Below are positions 22,724-43,036 of a stretch of DNA of 64,000 bases, one piece after another (positions within the stretch are counted from its first letter, which is position 1; each line of letters opens with the position of its first letter). The translations under genes were made by a program, and so were the position numbers. The stretch comes from Acidithiobacillus caldus ATCC 51756 (GTDB lineage: Bacteria > Pseudomonadota > Gammaproteobacteria > Acidithiobacillales > Acidithiobacillaceae), in NCBI RefSeq assembly GCF_000175575.2, contig NZ_CP005986.1, positions 875,549 to 939,548 on the forward strand, read 5' to 3'. The notes under the pieces are model-generated. The model had not been told where the DNA came from, did not search any database, and saw only the letters and a list, made by a program, of their open reading frames with translations.

Positions 22724-23377
22724 ATGGACGCAACACCCCCCCACACCCGTAAATGGGTAGCCTTCGACCTCGACGGCACCCTGACCCGGCGCGAGACCAT
22801 GCCCTTTTTCCTTCGGGAGGCACTGGGAACCCCGCGCTTCCTGGCTCTGGTGCTGCGCAGCCTACCGGAGCTCGGAGCCTATGGGCTTGGGCGTCTGCGC
22901 AACGATGCCGTCAAGGAGATCGTCCTGCGCCGCAGTCTTGGCGGGCGCGCGCTGGAGGACCTGCGGCCGGTGGCGGCGCGTTTTGCCGAACAGACCTTGC
23001 CCCGATTGCTGAGTGGCCCGGTGTGGGCGCGCGCGCAGGAGCATCGGGCGCGCGGCCATGGTCTGATCCTGGTGACCGCGACCCTCGGCCTCTACGCCGA
23101 AACCTGGGCGGCGGCCGCCGGTTTCGATGCCACCATCGCCACCGAGCTGGAGTTGGATGATGCCGGGTGCATCACCGGTCGCCTGCGCGGCGCCAATTGC
23201 TATGGCCCGGAGAAGGCGCGCCGTCTGCAGGATTTTCTGCGCGGACGGTCGCTGCACTGGGCGTACGGTAACAGCCGCGGCGATGCGGAAATGCTCGGTA
23301 TGGCCAGGCAAGCCGTGTGGGTAGGGCCGCAGCAGCACCGCGGGCAGGCCCTGCCGCCGCTGGCCGACACGGATTAA
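22724..23377 (+). CDS. HAD-superfamily subclass IB phosphatase
   Basis: The product is 217 residues. Motif I is FDLDGTLT, motif II the VTATLGLY region, and motif III/IV GNSRGDAEML, close to the phosphoserine phosphatase-like HAD-IB family. The substrate is unknown. It ends convergent with the cbbR gene with four bases of overlap. Confidence 0.85.
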   Translation: MDATPPHTRKWVAFDLDGTLTRRETMPFFLREALGTPRFLALVLRSLPELGAYGLGRLRNDAVKEIVLRRSLGGRALEDLRPVAARFAEQTLPRLLSGPVWARAQEHRARGHGLILVTATLGLYAETWAAAAGFDATIATELELDDAGCITGRLRGANCYGPEKARRLQDFLRGRSLHWAYGNSRGDAEMLGMARQAVWVGPQQHRGQALPPLADTD

Positions 23378-24281
23378 GTCTCGGGTTCGGACCGATCGCG
23401 CAGCAGAAAGGAAAGAAAGCGCTCCGCGACCGCTGGCAGCCGTTTGTTGCGGCGATGGACGACATGCCAGTGACGGCGAATGGGGAAACCCGCGACATCG
23501 AGGATGGCGACATCGCCAGCGGCCACCTCGGCAGCGACAGTGTTGCGCGACAGCACGCTGAGTCCCAGACCACCGGCCACCAGTTGCTTGACCGCCTCGT
23601 TGCTGCTCATGGTCATGCGCACCCGCAGTGAATGCCGCGCTCGCGAAAGAAGTTCTCCGCCGTCATGCGGGTGCCGGAACCTTCCTCCCGGAGGATGAAG
23701 GACTCTTCGCCTATGCGTTCGGGCGCGATGGCCGAGGCCCGGGTCAGGGGATGATCGGCGGGTGCGATGAGGACGATGGGATTGTCCAGGAAGGGATACG
23801 CCGTCCCCGGGAAGCCCTCGGGAACCTGCCCCATGATGTACAGATCGTCCAGATTCTGTTTGAGACGCTCGAGGATGCTGTCGCGGTTGACGATCTCCAG
23901 GCGCACCTCGATCCCGGGATACTCCTGGCAGAAGGCACCCACCAGGCGCGGCGCGAAGTACTCCGCCGTGGTGATGATGGCCAGACGCAGGAGCCCCCGT
24001 TCGACGTTGCGATGGGCGTCCAGTTCCTGGGTGAGGCTTTCGAGCCGGCGCAGGATATCGCGTCCGGCCCGCTCCACCGCCTCGCCGCTGGCGGTCAGAA
24101 AAAGCTTCTTACCCACCTGCTCGTACAGGGGTGCGCCCGCGTACTCCGCCAATTGCTTGATCTGGATGGACAGCGCCGCCGGCGTCTGGTGCAATTCCCG
24201 AGCGGCGCGGGTCATGTTAAGGTGACGCGCAAGCACCGTGAAGATACGCAACTGGTGCAGGGTGACGTGGCGAAGGGACAT
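23374..24281 (-). pseudogene. cbbR: LysR-type regulator CbbR, interrupted by a one-base frameshift
   Basis: Residues 1-222 (24281 down to 23613) give a winged helix-turn-helix (MTRAARELHQTPAALSIQIK) and most of the effector-binding domain, then run off frame at ERGIHCGCA-stop. The rest of the domain (MRMTMSSNEAVKQLVAGGLG to the stop at 23374) continues in another frame. Restoring one C in the CACTGCGGG run at about 23621-23631 gives HLRVRMTM and a normal length of about 302 residues. CbbR activates CO2-fixation genes in response to metabolites. It is divergent from cbbL with a matching operator between them. A sequencing error is possible. Confidence 0.8.
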
Positions 24282-24296
24282 GATTTTGTTATACCA

Positions 24297-24336
24297 AAAG
24301 GTAACGTTAACTTCTTTTTACTTTACCTTAGGTATT
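24297..24336. promoter_or_regulatory. Probable CbbR operator upstream of cbbL
   Basis: This 40-bp AT-rich box lies between cbbR and cbbL. It begins AAAAGGTAACGTTAAC and ends CTTTACCTTAGGTAT. It contains ACC/GGT half-sites in dyads (ATACC..AAGGTAA; TTACCTTAGGTAA-like) as expected of LysR-type sites. The same box, with 37 of 40 bases identical, recurs before dabB at 36155-36194. Confidence 0.75.
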
Positions 24337-24351
24337 GGCCTTTGTACATTC
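24323..24351 (+). promoter_or_regulatory. Putative cbbL promoter
   Basis: TTTACC (24323-24328) and TACATT (24346-24351) are separated by 17 bp. The -35 element lies inside the right half of the putative CbbR operator, an arrangement that suits activation by a LysR-type regulator. The dabB promoter has the same geometry. Confidence 0.55.
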
Positions 24352-24404
24352 GCTGGTGGATGCAGTTTCGCAGGTCGATTGGATTGATATCTTAGGAGGG
24401 ATCT

Positions 24405-25823
24405 ATGGCTGGTAAATATGAAGCCGGCGTCAAGGAGTACCGCCACACGTACTGGGCTCCTGACTACGTGCCTTTGGACTCGGACATCCTGGCGTGTTTC
24501 AAAATCGTTCCACAGCCCGGAGTCGATCGGGAAGAGGCGGCCGCTGCCGTAGCCGCAGAATCCTCCACCGGTACCTGGACCACGGTCTGGACCGACCTGC
24601 TGACGGACATGGATTACTACAAGGGCCGGGCCTATCGCATCGAGGACGTGCCCGGCGACGACACCGCCTTCTACGCCTTCATCGCCTACCCCATCGATCT
24701 CTTCGAGGAAGGTTCCGTCGTAAACGTCTTCACCTCCCTCGTGGGCAACGTTTTCGGCTTCAAGGCGGTGCGCTCCCTGCGTCTGGAAGACGTGCGCTTC
24801 CCCCTGCACTACGTGATGACCTGCAATGGTCCGGCGCATGGCATCCAGGTAGAGCGCGACAAGATGGACAAGTACGGTCGCCCGCTGTTGGGCTGCACCA
24901 TCAAGCCCAAGCTCGGTCTGTCGGCCAAGAATTATGGCCGCGCCGTCTATGAGGCCCTGCGCGGTGGCCTGGACTTCACCAAGGACGACGAGAACGTCAA
25001 CTCCCAGCCCTTCATGCGCTGGCGCGATCGCTTCCTCTTCGTGGCCGACGCCATTCGCAACGCTGAGGCCCAGACCGGTGAGCGCAAGGGGCACTACCTC
25101 AACGTCACCGCGCCCTCTCCGGAGGAGATGTACGAGCGCGCCGAGTTCGCCAAGGAACTGGGCATGCCCATCATCATGCACGACTTCCTGACGGGTGGCT
25201 TCTGCGCCAATACGGGTCTCGCCCGCTGGTGTCGCAAGAATGGTGTGCTTCTGCACATCCACCGCGCCATGCACGCCGTCATCGATCGCAACCCCCACCA
25301 CGGCATCCATTTCCGCGTGCTGACCAAGGCCCTGCGCCTGTCCGGCGGCGATCACCTGCATACCGGTACCGTGGTGGGCAAACTGGAAGGCGACCGCGCC
25401 TCGACCTTGGGCTGGATCGACCTGCTGCGGGAATCCTACATCCCCGAAGACCGCAGCCGTGGCATCTTCTTCGATCAGGACTGGGGCTCCATGCCCGGCG
25501 CATTTGCCGTTGCCTCGGGCGGTATCCACGTTTGGCACATGCCCGCTCTGGTGAACATCTTCGGTGACGATTCCGTGTTGCAGTTCGGCGGCGGTACCTT
25601 GGGCCACCCCTGGGGCAATGCCGCTGGCGCGGCGGCCAACCGTGTCGCCCTGGAGGCCTGCGTCGAGGCCCGTAACCGCGGGGTGGAGATCGAGAAGGAG
25701 GGCAAGGAGGTGCTCATGAATGCGGCGCGCCACTCCCCTGAGCTCAAGATCGCCCTGGAGACCTGGAAGGAAATCAAGTTCGAGTTCGACACTGTCGACA
25801 AGCTCGACGTCCAGAACCGCTGA
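24405..25823 (+). CDS. cbbL: RubisCO large subunit, form IA carboxysomal
   Basis: The product is 472 residues. The carbamylated Lys193 and metal ligands are in [10 protein letters not shown]. The loop around GCTIKPKLG and the RuBP-binding [18 protein letters not shown] are intact. AGGAGG lies before the ATG. It fixes CO2 on ribulose bisphosphate inside the carboxysome. First gene of the cso operon, with strong codon bias towards C/G third bases as for a highly expressed gene. Confidence 0.98.
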
Positions 25824-33777: not shown

Positions 33778-36141
33778 ATGGCCATCCAACTCTCGGATTA
33801 TCCCGATATCCTCGAAGCCCTTGGCGATCACGCCGCCGAGCTTTTGGCCTCGCAGTGGCATGAGGCTGCGCGGGTCTTCAGTCACTCGGCGCTGGAAGCC
33901 TATCTCCAGGGTGCCGTCAGCCTCAAGGCCCTGGGGCGGGGTAGCGACCTCGTGCTCGCCTACATCGAGAGCGCCCCGCAGGTGGCGCGGGAGATCGGCG
34001 AGCAGGCCGTGTTCGAGATGCTGTCGGCGGCCATCCGTATGTTTTCCAAGACCAGCGCCGAGGTCCTGACGCTGTTCTTCTCCAGCGCTCCCTTCGTTGC
34101 CCGCCGTCTGGGGGAGATCGAGCTCTTCCGTGGTTATCTGCTCCTTTTGGATCAGCTTCTGGCACAGGCGCCGCGCGGGGTCCGTCCCATGCTCGGGAAG
34201 ATCGAGGCGTTGCTGGAGCAGATGACCCTGGGCGGTCTGCGTCGTTGGGCCGCCTGGGGGATTTCCGCCTACCGCAACGATTTTGCCGCCCAGGCCGAGT
34301 ATTTCGGGCTGCAGAGCGAGCAGTCGCGAGCGGTACTGCAGCAGGAGCGCCGCGGTCTGTTGTTCATCGATGTGCAGCGGCGCCTGATCATGTATCTGCG
34401 CGCCCTCTGGGGCCGCGATTTCTTTCTGCGTCCCACCTCCGGTGACTTCGAGACGCGCCAGGGTTATCGACCCTACATCGAGCAGTACTTCATCCACGTC
34501 CCGGACGCCTACGACGACTGGGAGAATGCCCATGGGCAGCGGGTGACGGCCCTGGAGCTTTTTCGCGCCGCCGTTGCCCACGCGGCGGCCCATGTGGTGC
34601 TTTCCCAATACGACCTGCGTCTGGAACTCGCGCCGGCGGAGCAGAAGCTCTGGATCGGCTTGCTGGAAGATGCCTGGGTGGAACGGGAAGCCATGGCCCG
34701 CTTTCCCGGACTCCTGCCCCTGTGGCAGCGCCTCCTGCAGGTGCCGGCAACACAGGAGCGTGAGCGCGAGGCCGCCTTCCCGGCGGTCCTCGATCGCTGT
34801 GCCCTGGCCTTGCTGGACCCCGACTACGGCGATGACCACCCCCTGGTCGCCCGCGCCCGCTCGGCCTTTGCCGCCTTGCTCGCCGCACAGCCCCAGGATG
34901 CCAGTGCCCGCTATACGGAGATCCTCCAACGCGCTCAGGAGCTTGCCGCGGCGGCGGCAGAGGCCGGATTGGAGCTCCCCGGATACGGCGATGACGGCGC
35001 TATCCTATACCGGGACGACAACCGCTATCTGTGGACGGCGCCGGCGTCGCAGCTGGGCGATATCCTTGCCGGAGGCCCGCCCCAGGTGCGCAAGTATGTG
35101 AGCCTCATGGAGATGATCAACGCCGTCGACGTCGAGACGGCGGGGGACGATGCCCAGGAAATCTGGGTGCTGGCCACGGAATTTTTTGACGACGACGGGA
35201 CGACCTTCAACGAGCGCGAGGGCAAGGCGCCGGTCTCCCAGCCCGTGAGTTATCCGGAGTGGGACTATCAGACCCAACTGGAGAGGCCGCTTTGGGTGAC
35301 GCTTTACGAGAAACGGCCAAAGATGGGCGACCCCGAGGTCATCCATGCCTTTTTGGAAGCGCAGAAGCCGCTGGTGCAGCGACTCAAGAAACTCATAGAG
35401 GCGGTGCAACCGCAAGGGGTCATTCGCCAGCGCAAGGTGGAGGATGGCGACGAGATCGACATCAATGCCGCGGTCCTCGCCTTTACGGATATCCGCATGG
35501 GGCAGCAGCCCGATCCGCGCATCGGGATCCGCACCCGTCTGCACACGCGCGATCTATCGGTGCTGCTGCTCATCGATCTGTCGGAGTCCACCAACGACCG
35601 CCTGCGTTCGCGCAGCGAGGGCGACGTTACGGTGCTGCAGCTGGCGCGGGAGGCGGCGGTACTTTTGGCCGAGGCACTGGAGCGTATCGGTGATCCCTTC
35701 ATGCTCTGCGGTTTCGATTCCAACGGCCGCCACGATGTGGAGTTCTATACCTTCAAGGATTTTGCCGCGGAGTACGACGACAAGGTCAAAGGTCGCCTGG
35801 CCGGCATGACGGGTCAGTTGTCCACCCGTATGGGTGCTGCCCTGCGCCACGCGGGCCACCTGCTGGATCAGCAGCCAAGTCAGAAAAAACTGTTGCTGTT
35901 GTTGACCGATGGCGAGCCCTCGGATAACGACGTACGGGATCCCCAGTACCTGCGCTTCGATGCCAAAAAAGCGGTGGAAGAGCTGGCGCGTCGCGGAATT
36001 CGGACCTTTTGTCTGTCCCTGGACCCTTACGCGGACGAATACGTCTCGCGTATCTTCGGTGCGCGCAACTATCTGGTTCTGGATCATATAGACCGTCTGC
36101 CCGAGCGACTCCCGCAACTGTATCTGGCGATGACCAAATAG
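33778..36141 (+). CDS. cbbO: RubisCO activase subunit CbbO (VWA domain)
   Basis: The product is 787 residues. A long helical N-terminal region leads to a C-terminal VWA domain (about 585-787) with the MIDAS D-x-S-x-S motif in LLLIDLSESTND, T in LLLLTDGEPSDND, and a CLSLDP motif. CbbO binds the RubisCO Q2O6 activase complex and links CbbQ to inhibited RubisCO. The ATPase partner CbbQ is about 6 kb downstream. The stop is followed by the dab promoter. Confidence 0.94.
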   Translation: MAIQLSDYPDILEALGDHAAELLASQWHEAARVFSHSALEAYLQGAVSLKALGRGSDLVLAYIESAPQVAREIGEQAVFEMLSAAIRMFSKTSAEVLTLFFSSAPFVARRLGEIELFRGYLLLLDQLLAQAPRGVRPMLGKIEALLEQMTLGGLRRWAAWGISAYRNDFAAQAEYFGLQSEQSRAVLQQERRGLLFIDVQRRLIMYLRALWGRDFFLRPTSGDFETRQGYRPYIEQYFIHVPDAYDDWENAHGQRVTALELFRAAVAHAAAHVVLSQYDLRLELAPAEQKLWIGLLEDAWVEREAMARFPGLLPLWQRLLQVPATQEREREAAFPAVLDRCALALLDPDYGDDHPLVARARSAFAALLAAQPQDASARYTEILQRAQELAAAAAEAGLELPGYGDDGAILYRDDNRYLWTAPASQLGDILAGGPPQVRKYVSLMEMINAVDVETAGDDAQEIWVLATEFFDDDGTTFNEREGKAPVSQPVSYPEWDYQTQLERPLWVTLYEKRPKMGDPEVIHAFLEAQKPLVQRLKKLIEAVQPQGVIRQRKVEDGDEIDINAAVLAFTDIRMGQQPDPRIGIRTRLHTRDLSVLLLIDLSESTNDRLRSRSEGDVTVLQLAREAAVLLAEALERIGDPFMLCGFDSNGRHDVEFYTFKDFAAEYDDKVKGRLAGMTGQLSTRMGAALRHAGHLLDQQPSQKKLLLLLTDGEPSDNDVRDPQYLRFDAKKAVEELARRGIRTFCLSLDPYADEYVSRIFGARNYLVLDHIDRLPERLPQLYLAMTK

Positions 36142-36154
36142 TTTTTACGTTTAT

Positions 36155-36194
36155 AAAAGGTATCATTAACTTCTTTTTGCTTTACCTTAGGTAT
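36155..36194. promoter_or_regulatory. Probable CbbR operator upstream of dabB
   Basis: This 40-bp box differs from 24297-24336 at only three positions (9, 11 and 25). It carries the same AAAAGGTA left half and CTTTACCTTAGGTAT right half. It begins 14 bp after the cbbO stop, in a short gap that otherwise holds only a promoter, so the second carbon-acquisition unit appears to share its regulator with cbbL. Confidence 0.75.
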
Positions 36195-36209
36195 CGCGCT
36201 GGTTAGCAT
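36181..36209 (+). promoter_or_regulatory. Putative dabB promoter
   Basis: TTTACC (36181-36186), a 17-bp spacer and TAGCAT (36204-36209) reproduce the geometry of the cbbL promoter relative to the shared operator box. It shows that dabB begins its own transcription unit rather than depending solely on the cso operon. Confidence 0.55.
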
Positions 36210-36261
36210 AGCTTTGGCGTGGGCCGCTGTCGGCACGGTCCGGAACGACAGGAGGATGTGG

Positions 36262-37947
36262 ATGGACTCCATTGCCCTGGTAATACCGCTGTTGCCCCTG
36301 CTTTCGGCCCTTACGATCTTGGCCTTTCTGCGTGGGCGCAAGAAGGCGGCCGCGCGGGTCAGTGTGGCGACCTTGACCCTGGCTTTCCTGCTGGCCGCCT
36401 TCTTTTTGGGTCGCCACCTCTGGGGAGCCAAAGATGTGCTCCTGCACTCTCCCGGCCTCTGGGGCAGCCTGTGGCTGGATCCCCTGAGCCTCATCCTGTG
36501 GACCTTCGTCTCGGGTATCAGCCTCATCGTGCACGTCTATTCGGTGCGCTACATGGTCGAGGAACCGGGTTACCCGCGCTTTTTCGCCATGCTCGATCTC
36601 ATGACGGCGGTGATCCTGCTGATGGTGGCGGCGGGGGATCTCATCAGCCTGGTGATCGCGTGGTTTTTGGTGGGTGTGGTGCTCTATTTTCTGCTGGGCC
36701 ACGATCCGACGCGTCCGGCGGCCGGTCGTTATGCCTTCTGGACCCAGATCACCTACCGGGTGGGCGACGTGCCGCTCTGGTTTGCCGCCCTCATCCTCAT
36801 CCAGAGCTACCATAGCGTGTCGCTGCCGGTCATTTTTGCGCGCATCGGCGAGGATCCCCATGTGCTGCTCTGGGGTCTGCCGGTGCCGGAGCTCTGCGGT
36901 TTTCTTTTAGCTCTTGCCGCCTTCGCCCGGTCGGCGCAGTTCCTTCTGCACACCTGGCTGCCCTACACCATGGACGGACCGACCCCGGTATCTGCCCTCA
37001 TGCACGCGGGTATCGTCAATGCTGGGGGTTTCCTGTTCAACCGCTTCGCGCCTTTGTATGAGCATGCGGGCTGGGCCTTGCACTGGGCCTTTTTCGTGGG
37101 GCTCGTCACAGCGGTGGTGGGTTCGGCGCTCATGCTCATCCAGAACGATATCAAGCGGTCCCTGGGGTACTCCACCATGGGGCAGATGGGCTTCATGGTC
37201 ATGGAATGCGGCCTGGGTGCCTTCCCTCTGGCGGTTTTTCACCTCATCGCCCACGGCTTCTTCAAGGCCTCCCTGTTTCTCGGGTCCGGTGGTGTCATCG
37301 GTGAGGCGCGCCAGCGCGATGGCGTGCCGCCGGATCCCGTCTACACCTCGGTGGTGGAGCGGCGGCCCATCAAGCCATCGCGTCTGCCCTGGCTGGTGGC
37401 GGCTTCCTTGACGGTACTGGTGCCGGTCATCGTCATTGGTCTATCGCACTTTTTTGTGGCGGAACGCCTTTTTTACGAGCAGGGCGTCATCATCCTGCTG
37501 TTCTTTGGCTGGGTGACCGGTGCCCAGGCCCTGTTTGCCGCCCACAAGCTATCGCAGAAGGACCCGTGGCGGCTGATGAGCGGTATTCTGGTCTCCTTTG
37601 TGATCATCGTCATCGGCTACACCCTCATCAGCCATTACTTTGGCGACTTTCTCTATCCCGATCGGGCCGAAAGTCTGCGCCTCTACGAAGCCGCCAGTAT
37701 TCAGCACCTGTCCTTCGATCTTTTGGCGTTGCTGCTCGCCTTCATTTTCGTGGGCGGCTGGATGTTGACCTTTTTCCGCGAGAGTCTCGACTGGGGAAGG
37801 CGCCCGGGCGGGCGTTGGTACGGATGGTACCTTGGCGTGTATGCGCTCCTGTCCCGTGAACTGTACGTTGCCGACCTCTATCAGCGCGCCAGTCAGATCC
37901 TCCTGCAGTGGTCCCGTCGCTTCAATGTCTGGCTGGGATGGTGCTGA
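36262..37947 (+). CDS. dabB: DAB complex membrane subunit DabB (cation/proton channel)
   Basis: The product is 561 residues from ATG 36262, where GGAGG is six bases upstream. It belongs to the NuoL/Mrp-antiporter-like family with about 14 membrane helices. Conserved charged residues are in the helical regions HTWLPYTMDGPTPVSALMHA and MLIQNDIKRSLGYSTMGQMG. It couples cation movement to DabA for energetic accumulation of dissolved inorganic carbon. Start at 36256 or 36214 is less likely. Confidence 0.93.
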   Translation: MDSIALVIPLLPLLSALTILAFLRGRKKAAARVSVATLTLAFLLAAFFLGRHLWGAKDVLLHSPGLWGSLWLDPLSLILWTFVSGISLIVHVYSVRYMVEEPGYPRFFAMLDLMTAVILLMVAAGDLISLVIAWFLVGVVLYFLLGHDPTRPAAGRYAFWTQITYRVGDVPLWFAALILIQSYHSVSLPVIFARIGEDPHVLLWGLPVPELCGFLLALAAFARSAQFLLHTWLPYTMDGPTPVSALMHAGIVNAGGFLFNRFAPLYEHAGWALHWAFFVGLVTAVVGSALMLIQNDIKRSLGYSTMGQMGFMVMECGLGAFPLAVFHLIAHGFFKASLFLGSGGVIGEARQRDGVPPDPVYTSVVERRPIKPSRLPWLVAASLTVLVPVIVIGLSHFFVAERLFYEQGVIILLFFGWVTGAQALFAAHKLSQKDPWRLMSGILVSFVIIVIGYTLISHYFGDFLYPDRAESLRLYEAASIQHLSFDLLALLLAFIFVGGWMLTFFRESLDWGRRPGGRWYGWYLGVYALLSRELYVADLYQRASQILLQWSRRFNVWLGWC

Positions 37948-37948
37948 C

Positions 37949-38716
37949 ATGCTCGCGCTGATCACGATCTTCGCGGCCTTTCTGCTGCCGCTCTTTCCCC
38001 TGAGCTGGGTATTCAACCGCCTGCTGGACAGTTTGCCCATGGCCGCGGCAAGGGCACTGGCGGTACTGGCTCTGCCGCAATTGGGCCTGTTGTTGTTGCA
38101 GCACGGGGTGGCACCCTGGATGCTGGCGGCCTCCCAGCGCCGTGCGCTGGTGGCACTGGCCCTATTCTCGGCACTTTTTTACGCCTTTCGCGCCCTCAGC
38201 ACCCGGGATCTCTTCATCTGGACCCGGCTGAACCTAAGCTCTGGCCTGGCGGTGCTGTGGGTTGCCTGGGCCATGGGCACGGCCATACCGGTGCTGCAGA
38301 TCCTGGCACTGACCTGGAGCGTGCCGGCCGCCTTGCTTACCCTTTTGAGCGCTGCCCTGGCAGCGCGTCTTGGGGGTGCCTATCTCGGGCTCGTGGGCAA
38401 TCTGGTGGAACCGCTGCCACGCCTGACGGCCAGTATCGTGGCTACGGCGCTGGCCCTGCTGGCGACCCCCATTTTCCCGTCCTTTTTCGTGCTCTTCGGC
38501 ACGGCCATGCAGTTGCCCCTGTCCTGGATCCTACCTTTGCTCCTGCTGTTGCTGCTCTGGGGCTGGTCCTGCGGTCGGCTTTTTCAGGATCTGCTCTTTG
38601 GCACCTATCGGGGAGAGGTGGTGGAGGACCTGAGCGTGGGCAGCAGTCTGACGATTGTCGTGGTGCTTTTGGGCCTGCTGGTGCTGGGGCTGTACGGTAG
38701 CGGAGGTGTCCTGTGA
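37949..38716 (+). CDS. Multi-pass membrane protein between dabB and dabA
   Basis: The product is 255 residues with about eight hydrophobic helices and few charged residues. It starts MLALITIFAAFLLPLFPLSW one base after the dabB stop. It resembles the C-terminal part of proton-conducting complex I/Mrp-type subunits and could be a truncated DabB relative. It overlaps dabA by four bases. Its role in the complex is not established from sequence. Confidence 0.7.
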   Translation: MLALITIFAAFLLPLFPLSWVFNRLLDSLPMAAARALAVLALPQLGLLLLQHGVAPWMLAASQRRALVALALFSALFYAFRALSTRDLFIWTRLNLSSGLAVLWVAWAMGTAIPVLQILALTWSVPAALLTLLSAALAARLGGAYLGLVGNLVEPLPRLTASIVATALALLATPIFPSFFVLFGTAMQLPLSWILPLLLLLLLWGWSCGRLFQDLLFGTYRGEVVEDLSVGSSLTIVVVLLGLLVLGLYGSGGVL

Positions 38717-41700
38717 GCCTGGATCTCGGAGATCGTCTGCGGGTGCGCGCCATGGTCTATGTGGCCAGCGAGCCCATCCCGCGTTTCTGGCCCATGCGCA
38801 CCTTCATTCACCACAACCCCCTATACGGTCTGGAGGATCGTCCCTTTGCCGAGGCCGTTGCCCAAGCTTCGGAGCTTTTTCACGCCCGAGGTTATCTCCC
38901 GCGGAGCCAGTATCGGGAATACCTGGCCGCGGGCAGGGTAGACGCGCACGCCCTGCGCCAGGGCATGCACCGCTTCCTCGCCGAAAAAGGCGCGCAAGTG
39001 CCCGGGGTGGACCTGGAGGAGTGGTTGTGGGCCCTGAGTACCCGCTATCCGGGTGAACGCGTCGTCCAGGCGGGTGACTGGATCGATGGTGTCGGCCTGC
39101 GGGCGGCGCTGCAGGGGGAAGCGCTGCCGCCCCTGGGGGATGAAGAGGCCGTGGACACGGCCCTGCTGGAGCTGCTGGAGGCACGTCTTCCGCCGCAATT
39201 GCCGGTATATCTACAGGTGGACCAGCTCTACGGCAGCCAGATTGGGGATAGCCTCGACGATCTATTGACCAAGAGCTGTCTCGACTTTTTCGACGAGGGA
39301 CAGTCGGCCTGGCAGGCGCCGGGGCGCGAGGCGGGTTTCTTTCAGTCGTGGAAGGCCATTGCCCGGCGCAATGTGCGCTTTCTGTTGCGTGGCCTGCACC
39401 TGCGGCAGTTGCTGGCGCAGGAGGATACCCCCGAGGGCACCATCGCCCAGATTCTGCGGCAGCTGGAGGTGCCGGAGACGGCCTGGCAGGACTACATTAC
39501 CCGCGAGCTCACCCGCATGCACGGCTGGGCCGGGTTCATCCGCTACCGCAGCACCGCCAAACACTACTACTGGGCGCAACGGTATCCGGCGGATCTCGTG
39601 GATTTTCTGGCGGTGCGCATGGTCCTGGGCCTGGCCTTGTTGCAGGAGGCCGGACGCCACCAGGGCAGCCCGGTGAGCTACCGCGCCCTGCGCGCGTCCT
39701 GGCAGGAGCGGCCGCGTCTGGCCTATCTGCGCAGTGAGTTGCACTCCGCCAGGATTTTACCCGCCTGGGCGCAGCGTATCGATGGGTTGCTCAGTCGGCC
39801 AAGGGCGCACGCTATCGACTCGGTGGCGGCGGAATATATCGGTGCGCGACGCCAGTTTGAGCTGGACAGCCAGCGCAAGCGGCTCATGGAACTGGCCCGG
39901 GTGGTGGGAGGCGATGCGGAGCAGGCTCTGCGCGGCCTCAAAAGCGAAGATCTGCAGACACTGCGCCGGCTTCTGCGCGAATGGGAGGCGCGGGAAGGCT
40001 ACGTCTGGCTGCAGGCCATGGAGTCGCACTACATCACGGCCCTCGTGGACCAGCTGCGGGTGCCGCAGCCGGCCAGTCCCAAACGCCCGTTCGCCCAGGC
40101 CCTTTTCTGTATCGATGTGCGCTCCGAGCCCATGCGCCGGCAACTGGAGGCACTGGGCGACTATCAGACCTTCGGTATTGCCGGATTCTTCGGTGTACCC
40201 CTGGGCTACCTGGAATTTGGCAAGGGTAGTGAGATGCATCTCTGCCCCGCAGTGCAGACCCCCAAGAATCTCGTGCTGGAGATCCCGGCGGATCTGGAGC
40301 TGGAGGAAGAGGCCCTTTACGGCGCCCTGGAGCACGTGCTGCACGATCTGAAGAGCTCGGTGTTGTCGCCTTTCGTGGCGGTGGAGGCCATCGGTCTGCT
40401 ATTCAGTCTCGGCCTCATCGGCAAGACGCTGCTGCCGCTGGGCTACCATCACTGGCACGCCCGTCTGCACAGCGAAAAACCCATCACCCGGCTGCTGTTG
40501 GACAAGCTCAGCCCCGATCAGGCCGACTCCATCGTCCGCGCCATCCAGCGCGCCATGATCGTCAAGGCCCTGGCCCGGGAGCTGCGTATCTCGCGGGATC
40601 AGGTCACGGACGGCGAGGTGCGGGAACTGCGCGAGATCGCTCTGGGTCACCAGAGTGGTCCGAGCTTCCTCGTCCGGCAACGGAATCTGTCGCCGGCGGA
40701 GGAGGCGGCCTTCGTCGACAAACTGCGCGAGATCTACCGGGTCAACCACGCCGAAACCAGCCTGCAGATGGAGCGCCTGGGTCGTATTGGTTTCAGTCTC
40801 GAAGAGCAGGTGCGTTACGTGCTGCAGGCCCTGCTGTCCATTGGTCTCGATCGCAATTTTTCGCGCTTCGTCCTGCTGGTGGGCCACGAAAGCCGCAGCG
40901 AGAACAACCCCTACGAATCGGCCCTGGATTGCGGCGCCTGCGGCGGCGGGCGCGGTCTACCCAATGCCCGAGCTTTAGCGCACATGGCCAACAAGCCCGA
41001 GGTGCGGCGCCTGCTGCGGGAGCGGGGCGTGGTCATTCCCGAGGATACCTGGTTCCTGCCGGCGGTCCATAACACCACCACGGATGCGGTGGAACTCCAC
41101 GATCTGGATCTCTTGCCGGCACGGCATCTGCTCTATCTCGAGCGTCTGCGCAATGGGCTGTCGGCGGCGACCCGCCGCTGTGCTGCCCAGCGCATGCCGT
41201 TGTTGGGAGCGCCAGCGGAACTTGCCGCCGAGCCCTTTGCGGCGGCGGCGCTGGCGCAGCGCCAGGCCCACGACTGGTCGCAGGTGCGGCCGGAGTGGGG
41301 TCTTGCACGCAACGTCTATGCCATCGTCGGGCGCCGTGCCTTGACGGAGGGGGTGGATCTGGACGCCCGCGCTTTCCTGCAGTCCTACGACTATCGGCTG
41401 GACCCGCGCGGGCGGCTGCTGGAGAATATCCTGACGGGTCCCCTGGTGGTGGGCGAATGGATCAATCTGGAGCACTATTTTTCGGTGGTGGATACGGAAA
41501 GCTATGGCAGCGGCAGCAAGGTCTACCACAACGTCGCTGGACGCTTTGGGGTCATGACCGGCAATCAGAGCGATCTACGCACCGGTCTGCCCATCCAGAC
41601 GGTCATGAAGGACGGCAAGCCCTATCACGAGCCGGTACGCCTCATTGCCCTGGTGGAGGCCCCCCTGGCCTTTGCCCAGCGCACCGTGGAGCGCATTGCC

Positions 41701-41874
41701 AAGGTCAAATCCCTCATTGGCGGAGGCTGGGTGCGCCTGCTGATCCTTGACCCAGAGGACGATTACCGGGTACACGTCCTCACGGACGATGGGTTCGTGG
41801 TTCATCCCCACAGTCCACTACGGCCGTCATCGGTCCATCCGACATCCGCCCCCATACTGGAGCACATCCCATGA
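38713..41874 (+). CDS. dabA: DAB complex subunit DabA (DUF2309), vectorial carbonic anhydrase-like
   Basis: The product is 1053 residues from GTG 38713. A putative zinc site resembles beta-carbonic anhydrase: Cys466 and Asp468 in ALFCIDVRSEP, His725 and Cys740 in GHESRSENNPYESALDCGAC. DabA hydrates CO2 in a one-way, energy-driven manner with DabB, trapping bicarbonate in the cytosol. The long form (about 1050 residues) is present here. It overlaps the PII-like gene by four bases. Confidence 0.95.
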   Translation: MSLDLGDRLRVRAMVYVASEPIPRFWPMRTFIHHNPLYGLEDRPFAEAVAQASELFHARGYLPRSQYREYLAAGRVDAHALRQGMHRFLAEKGAQVPGVDLEEWLWALSTRYPGERVVQAGDWIDGVGLRAALQGEALPPLGDEEAVDTALLELLEARLPPQLPVYLQVDQLYGSQIGDSLDDLLTKSCLDFFDEGQSAWQAPGREAGFFQSWKAIARRNVRFLLRGLHLRQLLAQEDTPEGTIAQILRQLEVPETAWQDYITRELTRMHGWAGFIRYRSTAKHYYWAQRYPADLVDFLAVRMVLGLALLQEAGRHQGSPVSYRALRASWQERPRLAYLRSELHSARILPAWAQRIDGLLSRPRAHAIDSVAAEYIGARRQFELDSQRKRLMELARVVGGDAEQALRGLKSEDLQTLRRLLREWEAREGYVWLQAMESHYITALVDQLRVPQPASPKRPFAQALFCIDVRSEPMRRQLEALGDYQTFGIAGFFGVPLGYLEFGKGSEMHLCPAVQTPKNLVLEIPADLELEEEALYGALEHVLHDLKSSVLSPFVAVEAIGLLFSLGLIGKTLLPLGYHHWHARLHSEKPITRLLLDKLSPDQADSIVRAIQRAMIVKALARELRISRDQVTDGEVRELREIALGHQSGPSFLVRQRNLSPAEEAAFVDKLREIYRVNHAETSLQMERLGRIGFSLEEQVRYVLQALLSIGLDRNFSRFVLLVGHESRSENNPYESALDCGACGGGRGLPNARALAHMANKPEVRRLLRERGVVIPEDTWFLPAVHNTTTDAVELHDLDLLPARHLLYLERLRNGLSAATRRCAAQRMPLLGAPAELAAEPFAAAALAQRQAHDWSQVRPEWGLARNVYAIVGRRALTEGVDLDARAFLQSYDYRLDPRGRLLENILTGPLVVGEWINLEHYFSVVDTESYGSGSKVYHNVAGRFGVMTGNQSDLRTGLPIQTVMKDGKPYHEPVRLIALVEAPLAFAQRTVERIAKVKSLIGGGWVRLLILDPEDDYRVHVLTDDGFVVHPHSPLRPSSVHPTSAPILEHIP

Positions 41875-42218
41875 AATCCCTGAATCTCAGTCCGCTCAAG
41901 AAACTCGAGATCATTCTCGAGGGCGCCCATAAGGATTTCGCCACGGATCTTCTGGATCGCGCCGGCGTGCAGGGCTATACCATCGTCGGCAATCTGTCCG
42001 GAAAGGGCAGCCACGGCATTTACGAGGGGCACGTCATGTTCAATGAGGACGACGTCCTCATTATGATCATCGTAGCTGTGCCCGAGGAACTGGTAGCCCC
42101 CATCCTCGAGGGCTTCGCGCCCTTCTTCGACAAACACACGGGGGTGGTTTTCGTCTCCGACATCCAGGTCAGCCGCCTGGTGAAATTCCGGAGCGAACGT
42201 TCGTCCACCAGCAACTGA
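41871..42218 (+). CDS. PII-like signalling protein of the carboxysome/DAB cluster
   Basis: The product is 115 residues with the PII ferredoxin-like fold: [34 protein letters not shown], then an acidic [18 protein letters not shown]. It lacks the T-loop Tyr/Ser of GlnB, as do carboxysome-associated PII proteins that sense adenine nucleotides or bicarbonate. A role in tuning DabAB is inferred from the operon position only. Confidence 0.8.
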
Positions 42219-42232
42219 GCACGAGGTATATC

Positions 42233-43036
42233 ATGACCGATTTGGCCAGCGCCTATCTCATCGAGAAGGAGCCCTATTACAAAGAGGTGGACGACGAGAT
42301 CGCCCTCTACGAGGCGGCCTATGCGGCGCGCCTGCCCATGATGGTGAAAGGACCGACGGGTTGCGGCAAGTCGCGTTTCATCGAATACATGGCCTGGCGT
42401 CTGAAACGGCCCCTCATCAGTGTGGCCTGCAACGAGGACATGACGGCATCGGATCTCGTGGGGCGTTTCCTCTTGGACAAGGACGGGACCAAGTGGCAGG
42501 ACGGGCCGCTGACCCTGGCGGCGCGCATCGGTGCCATCTGTTATCTCGATGAAGTGGTGGAGGCGCGCCAGGATACCACCGTGGTCATCCATCCCCTCAC
42601 CGATCATCGGCGCACCTTGCCGCTGGACAAGAAAGGGGAACTGGTGCACGCCCACCCCGATTTTCAGCTGGTAATCTCCTATAATCCCGGTTATCAGTCC
42701 TCCATGAAGGATCTGAAGCAATCCACCAAGCAGCGCTTTGGCGCCCTGGATTTCAACTATCCGGAGCGCGATCTGGAGATCGAGATCGTCGCCCACGAAT
42801 CGGGTGTGAGTACCGACGTGGCGGGCAAACTAGTGTCCATCGCCGAGCGCTCCCGCAATCTCAAGGGGCATGGTTTGGATGAAGGATTGTCCACGCGTAT
42901 GCTCATCTACGCTGGCGCGCTGATCCAGAAAGGTATCGCGCCCATCACGGCGTGTAGCGTGGCCCTGGTGCGACCCATCACCGACGATCCCGACATGCGC
43001 GACGCTCTGGACGCCGCCGTCACTACCTTTTTCTGA
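42233..43036 (+). CDS. cbbQ: RubisCO activase ATPase CbbQ
   Basis: The product is 267 residues, a MoxR-type AAA+ protein. Walker A is [11 protein letters not shown] (Lys46) and Walker B is [12 protein letters not shown], with the sensor region ISYNPGYQ. CbbQ hexamers use ATP to release sugar-phosphate inhibitors from RubisCO together with CbbO. It lies last in the dab transcription unit and away from cbbO. Confidence 0.95.

Follow-up and report, generated by a model that had tools for sequence, protein, structure and literature searches.

CmpR, a regulator of the CbbR family, controls the cyanobacterial bicarbonate transporter cmpABCD at low CO2. In Acidithiobacillus ferrooxidans, CbbR was described as shifting the promoters of cbb1, cbb2, and cbb3, but not that of cbb4, and both T-N11-A and TNA-N7-TNA forms were counted as potential CbbR sites, in the accessible part of the report (PMC2942843). 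Transcripts of the carboxysomal cbb1 genes of this species fall as CO2 rises, according to the accessible text of another study (PMC6458275). Our literature search, which covered titles and the beginnings of abstracts with subscription journals mostly outside its reach, returned no report of CbbR control of DAB genes, and a prior report is possible; with the same coverage, CbbR and DabA were found together only in unrelated laccase work. Such control is not discussed in the accessible parts of PMC13144422, PMC7714395, PMC12628692, and PMC10880623.

The window analyzed here is a stretch of 64,000 nucleotides at 875549-939548 of contig C1 in the A. caldus ATCC 51756 genome (G000) that carries on its plus strand, in this order, a first putative operator (box 1), cbbL, the genes for the small subunit and the carboxysome, a ParA-type gene, cbbO, a second putative operator (box 2), dabB, an ORF, dabA, a PII gene, and cbbQ. 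The carboxysome gene names are in part presumed, and the gene at 33778..36141 is one that we take to be cbbO. The features are the following:

23374..24281, minus strand: cbbR, divergent from cbbL, with a one-base deletion that leaves a 222-aa stub (23613-24281) and the remainder in another frame
24296..24335, plus strand: putative operator box 1, between cbbR and cbbL and 70-109 bases upstream of the cbbL start, conserved without gaps across 13 family cbbL promoters
24322..24350, plus strand: predicted cbbL promoter TTTACC-17-TACATT, overlapping box 1, with a -10 region nearly invariant in the 13 promoters
24405..25823, plus strand: cbbL, large subunit of form I Rubisco
33778..36141, plus strand: presumed cbbO, Rubisco activase partner in which a VWA domain was found, last gene before box 2
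36155..36194, plus strand: putative operator box 2, in the cbbO-dabB gap, with T-N11-A but without TNA-N7-TNA, matched by profile R2 (E = 4.5e-8)
36181..36209, plus strand: predicted dabB promoter TTTACC-17-TAGCAT, with hexamers and spacing kept in the sister genome G001
36262..37947, plus strand: dabB, NuoL/NdhF-like subunit, first gene after box 2
37832..38716, plus strand: ORF between dabB and dabA, without a Pfam match, its true start probably later than 37832
38713..41874, plus strand: dabA (PF10070)
41871..42218, plus strand: gene for a PII-family protein (PF00543)
42233..43036, plus strand: cbbQ, AAA ATPase with CbbQ_C

A NuoL-like DabB is followed, in order, by a DabA with PF10070, as in DabAB operons. 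At 31017-32075 of the window, a 300-base repeat occurs three times (94-98% identical) over three csoS1-type shell genes, and this near-identity suggests gene conversion or recent duplication.

The locus is like the CmpR/cmpABCD system in that a CbbR-family regulator would stand over an operon for inorganic-carbon uptake; it differs in that cmpABCD encodes an ABC transporter in another phylum, whereas the putative operator of the window is a near copy of that of the Rubisco operon itself. It can also be compared with dab operons that have an adjacent LysR gene, one of which occurs in the same genome (L238, 3284-8760; about 985283-990759 of G000:C1), where a CbbR-like LysR gene, dabB (564 aa), and dabA (801 aa) lie on one strand. 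In contrast, the dab block of the window lacks an adjacent regulator gene and is preceded by a copy of the cbbL operator. With the cbb operators of A. ferrooxidans, it shares a divergent cbbR-cbbL gap with T-N11-A/TNA-N7-TNA sites that overlap the sigma-70-like promoter before the carboxysomal Rubisco genes, but it differs by a second copy before dabB, which keeps only T-N11-A; the accessible part of that report mentions no such site for any DAB gene (PMC2942843).

Direct comparison of the 40-mers at 24296-24335 and 36155-36194 gave an identity of 37/40. The preliminary description had reported this match with the first box at 24297-24336, which is one base too high, as identity falls to 18/40 in that register. 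The promoter elements it had read after both boxes, TTTACC-17 bp-TA(C/G)(A/C)(T/A)T, are present at 24322-24350 and 36181-36209. The best other, unrelated 40-mer within the window reached 21/40. When the two intergenic gaps were randomized by first-order Markov resampling (n = 3000), the best 40-mer matched at 20.7 positions on average and at 28 at most, and 37 was reached in 0/3000 pairs. The scan of the full genome with the box, suggested in the same description as a way to list further targets, was run: a pattern search allowing three mismatches or fewer over 2,987,045 bases in four contigs detected no third copy, nor did profiles R1 and R2 at E ≤ 10, models of 60-67 positions that would miss weaker CbbR sites, so that further, weaker targets may exist. 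A mobile repeat was ruled out as the identity of the box by these two genomic copies only.

Each promoter hexamer has 4/6 of the sigma-70 consensus bases, and this is why a promoter scan of both regions reported none above its threshold. The weakness of the predicted dabB promoter would fit activator dependence, and dabB transcription is expected to start near 36216. Box 1 contains two TNA-N7-TNA sites, at 24308 and 24318, with T-N11-A at both, and inverted arms (AAGGTAA at 24298-24304 and TTACCTT at 24323-24329). In box 2, T-N11-A occurs at 36172, 36177, and 36181, a loose motif that is frequent in AT-rich DNA, and no TNA-N7-TNA was detected within the gap (36142-36261). A change from A to G at 36179, the counterpart of 24320, is found in both G000 and G001; both TNA-N7-TNA sites are lost by it and T-N11-A is kept. 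An RNA leader or attenuator was considered and rejected, none of four stretches folding better than shuffled sequences (z from -0.47 to 0.75).

The cbbL promoters of the window and 12 relatives could be aligned over 60 bp without gaps, and 28 invariant positions span the box, the -35, and the -10; the dabB boxes keep 25 of them in G000 and 24 in G001. Wherever the gap was read, box 1 lies in the region common to divergent cbbR and cbbL. CbbR systems classically combine a divergent LysR gene with a site of this kind. Profile R1 had matches in 16 of the 29 family genomes, its 18 matches being 16 on the cbbL side (that of G024 is cut short by a contig end) and the two dabB boxes of G000 and G001. 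The 13 other family genomes had no R1 match, and in the three of them whose cbbR-cbbL gap was inspected (G003, G008, and G016) it is of a different type. As the training set of R1 includes both dabB boxes, profile R2 was built from the 13 cbbL promoters alone to avoid circularity, a set that leaves out three family genomes with an R1 match (G012, G017, and G024). R2 detected box 2 in G000 (E = 4.5e-8) as well as in G001 (E = 5.2e-8), and it gave no other match outside cbbL in G000 at E ≤ 10. At the class level, the R1 search returned weak matches in G348 and G069 (21-22 bits). In two metagenome-assembled genomes (MAGs), the cbbR-cbbL gap contains a pair of boxes separated by about 270-300 bases (L160, 4915-5274; L171, 2662-2990), and duplication of the operator is thus not unique to the window.

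The loci around the boxes are syntenic among relatives, and the dabB box is confined to G000 and G001, the two genomes compared of the genus, where the cbbO-dabB gap measures 120-122 nt. The gap is 36-39 nt long in G002, G010-G012, G017, G018, G023, and G024, 82-95 nt in G021, G022, G025, G026, and G028, and 23-29 nt in seven MAGs, some labelled Acidiferrobacter or near (L153, L154, L156, L159-L161, and L171), in all cases without the box. These seven MAGs also carry the cbbL box. Since the dabB box is found only in G000 and G001 and is absent from relatives with a cbbL box, box 2 was gained in this genus. In 15 genomes, only 23-39 nt separate cbbO from dabB, consistent with co-transcription, and the two blocks are probably one transcription unit in those relatives; the DAB genes were thus probably read ancestrally from the cbbL promoter, an internal copy of which was gained later in this lineage.

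Between G000 and G001, the box and promoter are identical at 48/55 positions and the remainder of the gap at 53/67, compared with 132/211 (62.6%) at the four-fold sites of dabB (Fisher test against four-fold sites, p = 0.0003 and p = 0.012, respectively), so that the cbbO-dabB region is constrained. The gain in the genus and this conservation fit the earlier proposal that the operator was copied or conserved by selection. The cbbL-side gaps of the two genomes differ by three bases and one 9-base insertion. The dabB box of G000 is closest to its own cbbL box (37/40), and that of G001 is closest to the cbbL box of G023 (37/40), with 34/40 to its own. In this pattern, which comes from two genomes only, either an old copy may have been converted later in G000, or G001 may have changed.

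The cbbR gene of the window lacks one base relative to that of G001, outside any homopolymer in the alignment. Its stub, which is not an intact LysR protein, retains the HTH but only part of the 209-position substrate domain (positions 3-129). In G001, cbbR is intact (302 aa), with a Rubisco operon regulator as its best PDB match. A cbbR match was obtained in 26 of the 29 family genomes (27 rows, E ≤ 1e-80); among these, only that of G000 ends at residue 219, and that of G027 has one internal stop. The frameshift in G000 may be a strain-level mutation or an assembly error. Two further CbbR-like proteins, 41% and 42% identical, are encoded in open frames in G000.

From the sequence comparisons above, we estimate at about 0.74 the probability that the two boxes serve as operator-promoter modules for a single LysR-type activator (most likely CbbR) at weak sigma-70-like promoters, the internal copy giving the DAB/PII/CbbQ block a promoter of its own. 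The boxes would span about -61 to -22 of activator-dependent sigma-70-like promoters. The DAB block would have been transcribed from the cbbL promoter in the ancestor, and the arrival of a copy of this promoter in the cbbO-dabB gap would have provided the DAB/PII/CbbQ genes, 12 kb downstream, with their own promoter under the same signal. Intact CbbR, or possibly a paralogue in this strain, would bind both boxes and recruit RNA polymerase, with starts near 24357 and 36216. The DAB block would thus be transcribed both by read-through from cbbL, a terminator search of 35900-36400 having found none, and from its own promoter, which carries the same operator. Expression of the carboxysome and of the inorganic-carbon pump would change in step with CO2 supply, and the pump could exceed the level set by read-through. 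A response to low CO2 is a natural guess because the cbb1 transcripts of A. ferrooxidans fall as CO2 rises. If confirmed, this would be a direct regulatory tie between the carboxysome genes and the DAB pump in a chemolithoautotroph, and a clean case of a second promoter arising within a long operon as a copy of its first; two small DNA fragments make the co-expression of these CO2-concentrating parts testable. The grouping of the carboxysome and DAB units into one CbbR regulon, as first proposed, is likely but unproven: common control by a single LysR-type regulator is the interpretation that fits best, but the two blocks probably form one transcription unit in relatives without the dabB box, so that the box adds an internal promoter. 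The loss of both TNA-N7-TNA sites in box 2, the frameshift in cbbR, and the fair conservation of the remainder of the cbbO-dabB gap (53/67) count against the CbbR reading.

The identity of the regulator is where the frameshift matters, as CbbR may be absent from this strain or replaced by a CbbR-like paralogue. The operator could then be common to both units with another CbbR-like LysR protein acting on it, such as the protein encoded next to the second dab cluster; a cbbR cut to 222 aa and the two CbbR-like proteins in open frames, one directly upstream of the second dabB-dabA pair, are in line with this. We regard it as improbable, as the sister genome keeps both an intact cbbR and both boxes, the R1 and R2 profiles detected no copy of the box around that cluster, and the frameshift itself may be confined to the strain or to the assembly. 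It is also unlikely, although slightly less so, that box 2 is a decaying duplicate without a regulatory role and that most dabB transcription still originates at the cbbL promoter. Such a view would account for the loss of TNA-N7-TNA, for the lack of a terminator between cbbO and dabB in the 35900-36400 interval, and for the 15 relatives in which dabB follows cbbO after 23-39 nt without a box; against it, the box and promoter, including the hexamers and their 17-bp spacing, are kept in both members of the genus above the level of four-fold sites (48/55 versus 62.6%).

A resemblance by convergence or chance between two promoter regions might be considered because both are AT-rich and LysR motifs are loose. 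This is highly improbable given the 0/3000 randomized pairs that reached 37 (maximum 28), the restriction of genome-wide matches to these two, and the fact that, at positions variable in the family, the dabB copy of the window follows the window's own cbbL copy. A pair of modules answering to one LysR-type activator, most likely CbbR, is the reading we prefer for this genus.

The regions upstream of cbbL and dabB were compared in other genomes (cbbL above 80% and dabB above 50% identity, both upstream regions present), 41 rows being reduced to 32 distinct genomes after removal of nine duplicates of G-loci (L162-L164, L166-L169, L203, and L204). A box common to cbbL and dabB was found in four of the 32 (the window, G001, G015, and L231). 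The 28 others, with a best 40-mer of 25 or less that is within reach of randomized pairs, count against a general cbbL/dabB link. Among the candidates rejected, the A. ferrianus-type genomes G003 and G016 gave 22-24/40 over all DNA between cbbO and dabB, within the range of randomized pairs, and the Halothiobacillaceae-type loci L190, L191, L193, L194, L197, and L199 gave 23/40 or less in the same strand orientation. In reverse orientation, values rose to 28/40 (L191), on gene-like stretches at the margins of the regions under comparison; these stretches were judged by inspection not to be operators.

The box pairs of the MAGs G015 (Acidithiobacillus sp. KUB_Bin07) and L231 each have 31/40 identities between cbbL and dabB, and the dabB region of G015 also matches its own cbbR promoter at 30/40. 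In Parasulfuritortus cantonensis (L177), which came only from a wider comparison of 133 region pairs in two orientations, from which the box pairs were selected, the dabB region matches the promoter between cbbR and a form II-like Rubisco gene at 29/40. Each of the values observed in G015, L231, and L177 was reached by 0/3000 randomized pairs, and the box sequences differ between these lineages and the genus of the window. Pairs of cbb and dabB boxes with other sequences in three other lineages suggest repeated, local recruitment. That DAB-type pumps were repeatedly put under Rubisco-operon control through a copied host cbb operator, in four lineages, with the two copies in this genus possibly evolving in concert as though one had been overwritten by gene conversion, is a tentative extension that we hold to be somewhat doubtful.

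Finally, the DNA preceding dabB showed two further particularities. A piece of the 3' end of cbbO lies directly before dabB in L126, L127, and L125 (G003, G016, and G006, respectively), the first two of which also keep an intact cbbO, and this fragment looks like a scar left when a dab module was acquired or duplicated. In G015 (L128, 2520-3581), an ORF that resembles fructose-bisphosphate aldolase by eye is located between cbbO and dabB, and it is followed by a predicted dabB promoter with its own putative operator.
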